Positions 20,622 through 55,622 of a stretch of DNA of 55,781 nucleotides are shown here, one piece after another. The notes under the pieces were generated by a model. It was not told where the DNA came from, did not search any database, and worked only from the letters and a program-made list of their open reading frames with translations. The stretch spans positions 1 through 55,781 of the forward strand of contig JAOZKI010000007.1 in the NCBI GenBank assembly GCA_029935455.1, read 5' to 3'. Numbering within the stretch: the first letter of the stretch is position 1; the number at the start of each line of letters is the position of its first letter. Origin of the DNA: Lysobacterales bacterium. Lineage in GTDB: Bacteria > Pseudomonadota > Gammaproteobacteria > Xanthomonadales > SZUA-36. The translations under genes were made by a program, and so were the position numbers.

Positions 20622-20843
20622 TTAACAGCCAGATATATCCAATGACACCGCTGACAGCTTCCCAGTCATCACCATGGCTGATGGCATGCTGCATCCCTCT
20701 GGTCTCGCCAGTGCGGGTCCGACTTTATTATGCACGCATTGTCTTACAGGGTCGCCAGTGATACCACCACCCCCTTGCCGGCTTCCCTAAGCTGATTAGC
20801 AATCAGGCTGAAAAGGCATTCGCTTTATCGCAAAAATTTCTGC
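20622..20843. other. Intergenic stretch upstream of DnaA boxes
   Basis: I see no gene, terminator or repeat in this part. It separates the divergent nucleotidyltransferase start (20621) from the DnaA-box cluster and RNA candidate and presumably holds the nucleotidyltransferase promoter. Confidence 0.4.
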
Positions 20844-20920
20844 TTATCCACAGCCCCGCAAACGAGGTTTCATAAACTTGTATTTTCCACATAAAGTGAT
20901 CGTTCAAAATCTGTGGATAA
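20844..20920. promoter_or_regulatory. Cluster of three DnaA boxes
   Basis: TTATCCACA at 20844-20852 (+, perfect R-type box), TTTTCCACA at 20883-20891 (+, fits TTWTNCACA) and TGTGGATAA at 20912-20920 (perfect box on the minus strand) lie within 77 bp. The setting is locally AT-rich. The gene context is not that of oriC. A DnaA-controlled promoter or a datA/DARS-like DnaA-binding site is inferred. Confidence 0.65.
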
Positions 20921-20936
20921 GGTGGCTGGCTGCTCT

Positions 20937-20965
20937 TTGACAGAGCCCGGGCGTAGGAGTAGTTT
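20937..20965 (+). promoter_or_regulatory. Possible promoter of structured RNA
   Basis: Exact TTGACA (20937-20942) followed after 17 bp by TAGTTT (20960-20965). The -10 is poor, and the -35 also lies in the loop of a small hairpin (GCTCT/AGAGC, 20932-20946), so this is tentative. It begins 16 bp after the last DnaA box. Confidence 0.3.
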
Positions 20966-20971
20966 GAATCC

Positions 20972-21382
20972 CCCGTTACAGGAATCCCACCGGCTGAAAA
21001 GTCGGGTCGGAGCAGAGACTGAGAAGATCGAAAGATCGGCTCATGGCTCGCCCCGAAGCGGCACTGGGCCGACCCGCCCGCTGTCGCTGAGGCCTAACGA
21101 AACGGCCAATGCCCGGATGGTACCGGGTAGGTCACCCGGACCGGGTTCTGCGATAAATCGGTCGTACCATGGAGGTGACTCGAAGAAGATTCGCGATCTT
21201 CCGAGATAGACGCTCCGGCGTCGATAAAGAACGGCGGCGGGAAGGGCCGCGACCAGCAACCGCAGGCAGAACAGAAGCGGGGCGGGTCTGAATTGGAAAG
21301 GCCTAGGGCGGGTCTGCAGCCAGCCAGAGACGGAGTTCCAATCTTTCATAGGCCGGGAAAACTCGTTTTTCCCGGCCTTTTT
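20972..21382 (+). ncRNA. Candidate structured non-coding RNA of about 0.4 kb
   Basis: No plausible coding frame, but many perfect local and nested pairings, and a strong terminator at the end. Hairpins: CCGGCT-GAAA-AGTCGG (20990-21005, GNRA loop); GATC-GAAA-GATC (21026-21037, GNRA loop) inside a possible GGGTCGG/CCGACCC helix (21004-21010 with 21069-21075); CCGGGT/ACCCGG (21123-21139) nested in ATGGTA/TACCAT (21117-21122 with 21165-21170); CTCG..GAAGAT/ATCTTC..CGAG (21179-21205); GACGC-TCCG-GCGTC (21209-21222, UNCG loop); GCGGC/GCCGC (21234-21250); ATTGGAA/TTCCAAT (21292-21298 with 21336-21342). GNRA and UNCG loops together argue for selected RNA structure. It does not match the conserved cores of RNase P RNA, tmRNA, 6S or SRP RNA as I know them. 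The exact 5' end is uncertain. Confidence 0.6.
21351..21382 (+). terminator. Rho-independent terminator of RNA candidate
   Basis: GGCCGGGAAAA pairs with TTTTTCCCGGCC across CTCG, followed by five T. It works only on the plus strand and lies more than 90 bp before mlaF, so it must end a transcript that begins upstream within the non-coding stretch. Confidence 0.9.
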
Positions 21383-21510
21383 AGTGGGCGCATTTTCTTG
21401 CCGGGGCAGGGTTCAGCGGCAACAGACCGATGCGCTGTGACTTATTTCACCTGCCGTTACGCCCAACAAGGCCTACAATGGCGGCTAGCAAATTAGAAGA
21501 ACACCCATTC

Positions 21511-22314
21511 ATGCAAGCGACCGAGAGCTCAGCAGAGGCTCTGATCAAAGTACGCGGCCTGACTTTTCGGCGCGGCCAGCGACGGGTTCTAAACCACGTG
21601 GACATGGATATTCCGCGCGGCAGCGTCGTGGCCATCATGGGCCCCAGCGGCGTGGGCAAAACCACCATTCTCAAGCTGATTGCAGGTCAACTGCAGCCGG
21701 ATGCCGGCTCTGTCACCATCAATGGAAAGGCCGTAACCGGGCTTAATCGCCGTGAACTCTTCGCCCTGCGGGAGGACATGGGCTTCCTGCTCCAGAACGG
21801 CGCGCTGTTTACCGACCTGACCGTGTTCGAAAATGTGGCCACGCCCCTGCGTGAGCACCGGCGCATGAAGGAAGAAGAAATTGCTGTACGTGTGGAAGAA
21901 AAGCTCCATGCGGTAGGACTGAGCGGCACGGGCGAATTGATGCCCGATGCCCTGTCCGGCGGTATGGCGCGACGCGTGGCCCTGGCCCGGGCAGTGGTGC
22001 TCAACCCGTCCATCGTGATGTTTGACGAACCCATGGCCGGACTGGATCCGATCGCGGTCAGCACCATCAACCAACTGATCCGGCAAACCAACGACGACCT
22101 GGGCCTGACCAGCATCGTGGTTACCCACGATGTCGAACAAATGAGTCGCCTGGTTGATTATTGCTACATCATTGCTGATGGACGCATTGCCGGCCAGGGC
22201 CATCCCGATGAACTGCGCGGCAGCGACAACCCCGCAGTCAAGCAGTTTATGAATGGTCACGTGGATGGTCCGATTCCCTTTCATTACGATCAGGCCAGCG
22301 GCGCAGCGTCATGA
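21511..22314 (+). CDS. mlaF: Phospholipid transport ATP-binding protein MlaF
   Basis: ATPase of the Mla ABC system, which moves phospholipids between outer and inner membranes. About 267 residues. Walker A GPSGVGKTT near residue 47, Q-loop FLLQNGALFTDLTVFENVA, signature LSGGMARRVALARAVV and Walker B IVMFDEPMAGLDP are all intact, and the tail FMNGHVDGPIPFHY is the MlaF-typical C-terminus. Starts at 21430 and 21478 are also in frame; I prefer the ATG at 21511 by comparison with MlaF length. The stop overlaps the mlaE start by four bases. Confidence 0.9.
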   Translation: MQATESSAEALIKVRGLTFRRGQRRVLNHVDMDIPRGSVVAIMGPSGVGKTTILKLIAGQLQPDAGSVTINGKAVTGLNRRELFALREDMGFLLQNGALFTDLTVFENVATPLREHRRMKEEEIAVRVEEKLHAVGLSGTGELMPDALSGGMARRVALARAVVLNPSIVMFDEPMAGLDPIAVSTINQLIRQTNDDLGLTSIVVTHDVEQMSRLVDYCYIIADGRIAGQGHPDELRGSDNPAVKQFMNGHVDGPIPFHYDQASGAAS

Positions 22315-55521: not shown

Positions 55522-55605
55522 AGGTCTGCAAGCGCCGTTCAATTCAAAACGCGACCTGACCGAGCCTCGCCTGCTCCCATGGGCAGACTGCAGCGCTCCT
55601 CGGCA
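55522..55605 (-). promoter_or_regulatory. S-adenosylhomocysteine riboswitch
   Basis: On the minus strand the leader contains CCGAGGAGCGCTGCA near 55590-55603, GAGGCTCGG about 35 bases later near 55559-55567, and AACGGCGCTTGC near 55528-55539. These are the conserved core elements of the SAH (ahcY) riboswitch: CCGAGG pairs with GCTCGG, and GAGCGC region pairs with GGCGCT to form the pseudoknot. It stands between metK and ahcY, exactly where this class occurs in proteobacteria. SAH binding turns on ahcY. Confidence 0.92.
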
Positions 55606-55622
55606 GGTACGCCATGCCGGTT

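Follow-up and report, generated by a model that had tools for sequence, protein, structure and literature searches.

A candidate stand-alone structured RNA gene beside mla-type genes in a family of Gammaproteobacteria

Positions 20972-21383 of the window, the whole 55,781-nucleotide stretch of Lysobacterales DNA analysed here, look like a noncoding RNA gene rather than a run of chance hairpins; no transcript data are available. Computation demonstrates a conserved locus, its spread among genomes and selection acting on the overall secondary structure. Our best explanation, which we judge somewhat better than even when taken whole, fold and scaffold role included, is that this is an independent RNA gene, served by a sigma-70-type promoter and an intrinsic terminator of its own; its transcription is inferred. 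No Rfam 15 class was matched, and the RNA is therefore new at the level of the RNA family; more broadly, it is one more large stand-alone noncoding RNA. The first-pass annotation of this DNA had put forward a structured RNA, possibly undescribed and ending in a terminator of its own, a proposal supported by the lack of an Rfam match at gathering score, by family-wide relatives and by the sum of compensatory changes.

Distribution of the locus

Homologs were found across one bacterial family, the GTDB family to which the window belongs (f1). Searching 61 genomes at the DNA level gave matches in 29, 28 of them in f1; the sole match outside f1 (L029) covers only 28 bases and was dropped. A pattern scan of named genomes yielded 19 stretches, all in MAG records, whose titles name Lysobacterales, Xanthomonadales, Oceanospirillales, Chromatiales or Gammaproteobacteria. 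R1, a covariance model built from 17 sequences of the core, detected the RNA in 33 of 39 f1 genomes, and in 21 of the 22 with completeness of at least 90% and contamination of at most 5%. The one good-quality f1 genome without the RNA (G008) was also missed by a second model.

Across 299 genomes of the order, R1 gave 37 matches, comprising the 33 in f1, three in a second family (f5) and a chance match in G234. A wider model (R2) matched 36 of 398 genomes of the order, namely the same 33 from f1 and three from f5. R2 was built with rows from f5 and from the genus g8, so its matches in those groups partly follow from construction. R1 contains no f5 or g8 rows, and its E values run from 8e-5 to 2e-6 for the f5 sites and from 6e-7 to 8e-9 for the three g8 sites. 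Another f5 genome, G060, had no match to the RNA. When R2 was run on 369 genomes drawn from the class, three matches were returned: the window's own and two without the architecture. The weak matches in G234 (L093), in G465 and G605 (L111-L113), and in G044, G032, G052, G050 and at a second site in G040 (L128-L133) were all judged to be chance, as they lack the conserved motifs and the architecture. The set of 33 loci used below comprises 27 loci plus three from g8 and three from f5, and excludes L005, L030, L097, L098 and the G062 match.

One genome, G061, carries two differing copies of the RNA, L097 and L098, each close to a contig end. Terminator-like sequence upstream of one copy suggests that they form a tandem pair; mixed strains are also possible.

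Gene boundaries and neighbors

Unless stated otherwise, the features described here and below lie on the plus strand. The RNA gene spans approximately 410 nt (20972-21383), its 5' end being inferred from the promoter and its 3' end from the terminator. The proposed promoter comprises a -35 element, TTGACA (20937-20942), and, after a 17 nt spacer, a -10 element, TAGTTT (20960-20965), which fits TATAAT at three of six positions. All 33 loci contain TTGAC, and 27 contain TTGACA. The loci were themselves located via the TTGAC motif, and the -35/-10 spacing is the more independent evidence: the TA of the -10 element occurs at the same spacing in 31 of the 33 loci and is shifted by one base in the other two. 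A generic promoter scan detected no promoter at the 5' side of the RNA. Because 20937-20965 reads as a promoter, we place the start of the RNA near 20972; an element had previously been drawn at 20932-21382, and the RNA is indeed present there, with its start moved downstream.

At its 3' end the RNA has a G+C-rich hairpin followed by T's, forming an intrinsic terminator (21350-21383, with the stem at 21350-21378). Six of ten pairs of this helix have changed on both sides (alignment A4, described below). The terminator lies 132 bp upstream of the ATG at 21511, taken as the mlaF start, which confirms the earlier description of a strong intrinsic terminator more than 90 bp before mlaF.

The absence of a plausible gene on either strand, as first annotated, is also supported for the two longest overlapping frames. 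In the nearest relative, L002 (88% identical), these frames, 20913-21209 on the plus strand and 21041-21349 on the minus strand, each hit a stop, and the 44 differences between the window and L002 show no clear codon-position bias. The protein-coding reading of these two frames was rejected because of the stops; other frames fell outside this comparison.

Upstream of the promoter, the DNA element TTCGCTTTATCGCAA (20819-20833) has similar sequences upstream of the RNA in several relatives, as judged by eye. Its exact 15-base pattern has four matches in eight genomes, one of which is the window itself. The other three are in other genomes, on contigs that do not carry the RNA gene, and the element was rejected as a regulon marker, no regulon having been found. 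By eye, a TTCGCTTYRTCGCA-like element stands upstream of the RNA promoter in the window (20819-20833), L003, L018, L027, L028 and L094-L097, and closer to the promoter in g8. It may bind a regulator.

Family searches identified an ABC ATPase, MlaE, MlaD and MlaC downstream of the RNA in the window, and a MobA-like domain protein upstream on the other strand. The best NCBIfam match of the ATPase is MlaF, below its cut-off. In 11 f1 loci outside g8, mla-type genes follow the RNA on the same strand, beyond the terminator; these neighbors were assigned by family search in the window and L100 and by eye elsewhere, only for loci with downstream sequence. Such an arrangement could be expected of a cis-acting leader of the mlaFEDC operon, either a riboswitch or an attenuator, a reading to which we attach very little weight. 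In three g8 and three f5 loci the core motifs are kept and the next long reading frame is convergent. The best family match upstream in L090 is mnmC, and that downstream in L092 is glnE. Furthermore, 22 of 27 loci have TACAAT downstream of the RNA, where shuffles expect approximately 6% per 300 bp; in the window it lies at 21474-21479, outside the RNA, probably as the -10 element of a promoter that serves mlaF separately. We could place the mlaF P-loop in 20 of the 27, and in 17 of those TACAAT stands before it. The convergent neighbors in six loci and the TACAAT after the RNA suggest that the RNA is probably its own gene, and not the leader of the mla operon.

In L090 and L091, a frame containing YHVSNRG lies about 0.6-1.6 kb upstream of GAGATAGACG, a conserved segment of the RNA; we take this motif to be typical of REP-associated transposases.

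A mobile or phage-borne element would account for array lengths that vary between species and for the two differing copies in one assembly (L097 and L098). No blastn match to the RNA was found in phage and plasmid records, however, nor any exact pattern match in viral contigs, and the position beside mla is common to many f1 genera; we consider this origin barely worth entertaining.

Comparative evidence for the fold

None of 100 dinucleotide shuffles folds as well as the strand (z -3.84; z -3.29 for 20972-21383 alone), and its complement also beats its own dinucleotide shuffles (z -4.20). Since the complement folds equally well, folding energy alone proves little. Single-sequence folding was therefore set aside as proof, and comparison with relatives was needed. 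An end-to-end pairing of GGTGGCTGGCTGC with GCAGCCAGCC was also discarded, as it begins before the promoter and probably arises by chance.

Four alignments were compared. The core alignment (A1) holds 17 of 29 homologous loci, leaving out nine with a long array B (L018, L020-L027), the distant L028, and L005 and L030, which are cut by contig ends. The 5' alignment (A3) holds 13 loci, 11 of the 29 plus L097 and L098, without those that have a long array A or lack these hairpins. The 3' alignment (A4) holds 26 loci, without L028, g8 and f5. The wider alignment (A2) consists of 17 chosen rows including g8 and f5; the helix H2 is out of register in its distant rows, and was hence uncounted there. 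The same sequences served both for drawing the helices and for testing them.

Within A1, 96.8% of cells are paired, and changes on both sides occur in 20 of 57 pairs, versus 1 to 6 when the structure is slid along the alignment as a control. The corresponding values are 15 of 19 pairs in A3 (2 to 6 slid) and 16 of 30 in A4 (0 to 7 slid). RNAalifold, run on A1 with no structure supplied, recovered nearly the same nested helices, with 42 pairs, 17 of them with double changes. In A2, the helices H1 and H4 covary, with 40 cells carrying double changes versus 5 to 7 slid. Because relatedness can mimic covariation, compensatory events were also counted on trees. These number 13 in A1 (null maximum 4), 13 in A3 (null maximum 4) and 20 in A4 (null maximum 5), where the null comprised 300 simulations per alignment in which every branch retained its substitutions. 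With slid structures the count is 0 to 3 events. Per pair, a G-test under the tree null, modelled on the covariation check suggested in the first-pass annotation, left all 87 proposed pairs without significance (none with E below 0.05); the top-ranking pair among all columns (E 0.46) is not one of those proposed. The summed-event test was devised after these per-pair tests came out non-significant. Covariation is thus supported when summed over the structure, above both the tree-based and the slid controls, and not for any individual pair.

The proposed fold would have three parts: a 5' domain, a central core that two pseudoknots probably hold together, and a 3' domain. The 5' domain would be closed by a long-range helix, P1 (20973-20977/21101-21105), which is 92-100% paired across 26 sequences and, being nearly invariant, has no covariation support. 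Two hairpins with GAAA loops follow: P2 (20990-20995/21000-21005), with both-side changes in five of six pairs, and a second at 21026-21029/21034-21037, with both-side changes in three of four. In some relatives, array A sits at the region of 20990-21037. The P4 stem (21058-21062/21083-21087) has changed on both sides in four of five pairs, with 88.7% of cells paired, and encloses the near-invariant GGCCGACCCGCC (21067-21078).

The core begins with the H1 stem (21109-21114/21125-21130), in which all six pairs have changed on both sides, in A1 and in A2 alike. Its loop contains the 5' strand of pseudoknot 1, UGGUAC/GUACCA (21118-21123/21164-21169), which is 99% paired and invariant in A1. In A2 it is 96% paired, with one-sided changes only (zero of six pairs with a double change) and with inner pairs lost in two f5 rows; no alignment counted contains a double change. 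H2 (21131-21137/21173-21179; two of seven pairs changed on both sides in A1) encloses H3 (21139-21143/21159-21163), which is nearly invariant, with both-side changes in zero of five pairs. Pseudoknot 2, GUUCUGC/GCAGAAC (21145-21151/21266-21272), is 97% paired, with two of eight pairs changed on both sides; on the tree it shows one compensatory and three breaking events, against null means of 0.12 and 8.3. It is a probable pseudoknot that rests on few changes. The details of both pseudoknots are inferred, and they are the least secure part of the fold.

Further along, H4 (21185-21189/21197-21201) has both-side changes in four of five pairs in A1 and double changes in three of five in A2. H5 (21209-21213/21218-21222), a hairpin with a TCCG loop, has both-side changes in one of five pairs in A1, and its loop is the site of array B in other species. 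The conserved GAGATAGACG, within 21180-21222, is invariant across the 17 A2 rows, as are UGGUA and GAGAUAGACG, and a GUCGAUAAA-like segment is widely kept among the loci. H6 (21234-21238/21246-21250) and H7 (21253-21256/21283-21286) have both-side changes in A4 in two of five and three of four pairs, respectively. The 3' domain contains P10 (21294-21298/21336-21340), with both-side changes in one of five pairs, and P11 (21307-21312/21320-21325), with such changes in four of six and 85.9% of cells paired. The P11 loop is the palindrome CTGCAG (21314-21319), present within the final 190 nt in 29 of the 33 loci. It is absent from L008, L011 and L028; the fourth exception, L026, has CUGUAG, in which self-pairing is still possible via two G-U pairs.

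Several of these elements had been noted in the first-pass annotation. The hairpins with two GAAA loops and a TCCG loop are present in the sequence at 20990-21005, 21026-21037 and 21209-21222. The letters of ATGGTA/TACCAT, described as nested around CCGGGT/ACCCGG, appear to pair as the pseudoknot 21118-21123/21164-21169, not as an enclosing helix; in relatives, the letters of the CCGGGT/ACCCGG region fall mainly within the helices H1 and H2. Two occurrences of GGGCGGGTCTG are found at 21280 and 21306 as reported, and the repeat is absent even in the closest relative, L002.

Two sites in the fold accept long insertions. The 5' arm, from the assumed start to GGCCG, measures 99, 99, 155, 156, 213 and 435 nt in six loci of the genus g9, in steps of approximately 57 nt. 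In L007, L012, L013 and L015, each step of approximately 57 nt adds about two hairpins. In other genera, nine loci have an H5 loop of 198 to 557 nt instead. Hairpins with GNRA or UNCG tetraloops are more numerous than in all 100 mononucleotide shuffles in 10 of 13 long arms; in the arms of L018, L021 and L022 their count merely equals the best shuffle. These species-specific tandem hairpins may be tolerated extensions.

Relation to known RNAs and possible function

At gathering threshold, Rfam 15 detects only an SAH riboswitch in the whole window (55523-55607, minus strand), and only one tRNA, outside the RNA, in 18 related loci. Searching the RNA region alone up to E 10 returned four weak, irrelevant matches far below thresholds, the best being mir-92 on the terminator hairpin. 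No description of this RNA was found in the literature, which is weak evidence given that most subscription journals were not covered. The RNA is similar in size to RNase P RNA or tmRNA, and might be taken for a known housekeeping RNA that has diverged strongly. The same genome, however, has an RNase P RNA match (RF00010) on another contig, C42, with none in the window, and a full-length tmRNA match (RF00023) on contig C68; ARAGORN found no tmRNA in the window. The 6S RNA (RF00013), on another contig in this genome, was found elsewhere in all eight genomes searched. We regard a housekeeping origin as scarcely credible.

Larger bacterial RNAs offer closer likenesses. Rfam has profiles for OLE, GOLLD and ROOL, according to PMC12286853, and none of the three matched the window, the region alone (to E 10) or the 18 related loci. 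OLE is likewise a bacterial RNA that is large, ornate and stand-alone, with a function that is poorly understood; it is described from Gram-positive extremophiles, whereas the present RNA has no Rfam match. GOLLD and ROOL are similarly large, with elaborate conserved folds. They are reported to assemble with kissing loops; it is also stated that they are encoded in phages and prophages and that GOLLD often exceeds 800 nt (PMC12286853). Unlike these phage-borne RNAs, the RNA described here has no phage, viral or Rfam match. The raiA-motif RNA (ModT) is also a conserved structured bacterial RNA, but is reported from Bacillota (PMC11706538). Our RNA has no Rfam match at gathering score, and the presence of a raiA model in Rfam 15 is unconfirmed.

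Sponges of the CsrB/RsmZ type likewise have several hairpins and a terminator. They carry repeated GGA in hairpin loops, and they differ from this RNA, which has probable pseudoknots. A base-pairing regulatory RNA or protein sponge could act mainly via exposed segments such as GGCCGACCCGCC or GAGATAGACG, with the fold serving as presentation. Several segments drawn unpaired are nearly invariant, and many GGA triplets are read, uncounted, in the purine-rich linkers of the arrays. Set against this, the arrays are missing from many loci, and GGA is irregular in the conserved hairpin loops, occasional near the H1 loop (by eye in A1, A3 and A4, with array hairpins excluded and no statistics). To our knowledge, RNAs of this kind seldom show a compact covarying fold, and we consider this function rather unlikely. 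The size, probable pseudoknots and invariant core segments would also suit a ribozyme or an enzyme's RNA component, but no cleavage or splicing product can be inferred and no Rfam match reaches gathering score; we rate this option lower still, as distinctly improbable.

Action in trans as a structural scaffold, alone or with proteins, is the most likely mode by inference, and is the reading we prefer; no transcript or partner is known that would substantiate it. The self-complementary CUGCAG in the 3' hairpin loop may let two copies of the scaffold kiss into a dimer. CUGCAG is kept while the P11 stem changes, which is what a kissing dimer would need, but the motif might just as well bind a protein or make a contact within one molecule. 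We infer dimer formation only as a possibility well short of even. Assembly into homo-oligomers, as in OLE, GOLLD and ROOL, is hinted at by the conserved palindromic loop alone. We therefore offer only tentatively the proposal of a new class in Gammaproteobacteria: a pseudoknotted chromosomal RNA that dimerizes via a CUGCAG kissing loop and whose arms of tandem tetraloop hairpins are specific to the species. It would resemble OLE, GOLLD and ROOL without matching any of them.

Large structured bacterial RNA classes are few. Those known include ribozymes, RNA-protein machines and RNA-only assemblies (PMC12286853 and general background). The present RNA occurs in 33 of 39 genomes of its host family, which is known here from MAG records, and it has a covarying fold; its short form, at approximately 400 nt, is of a size that permits probing and cryo-EM.
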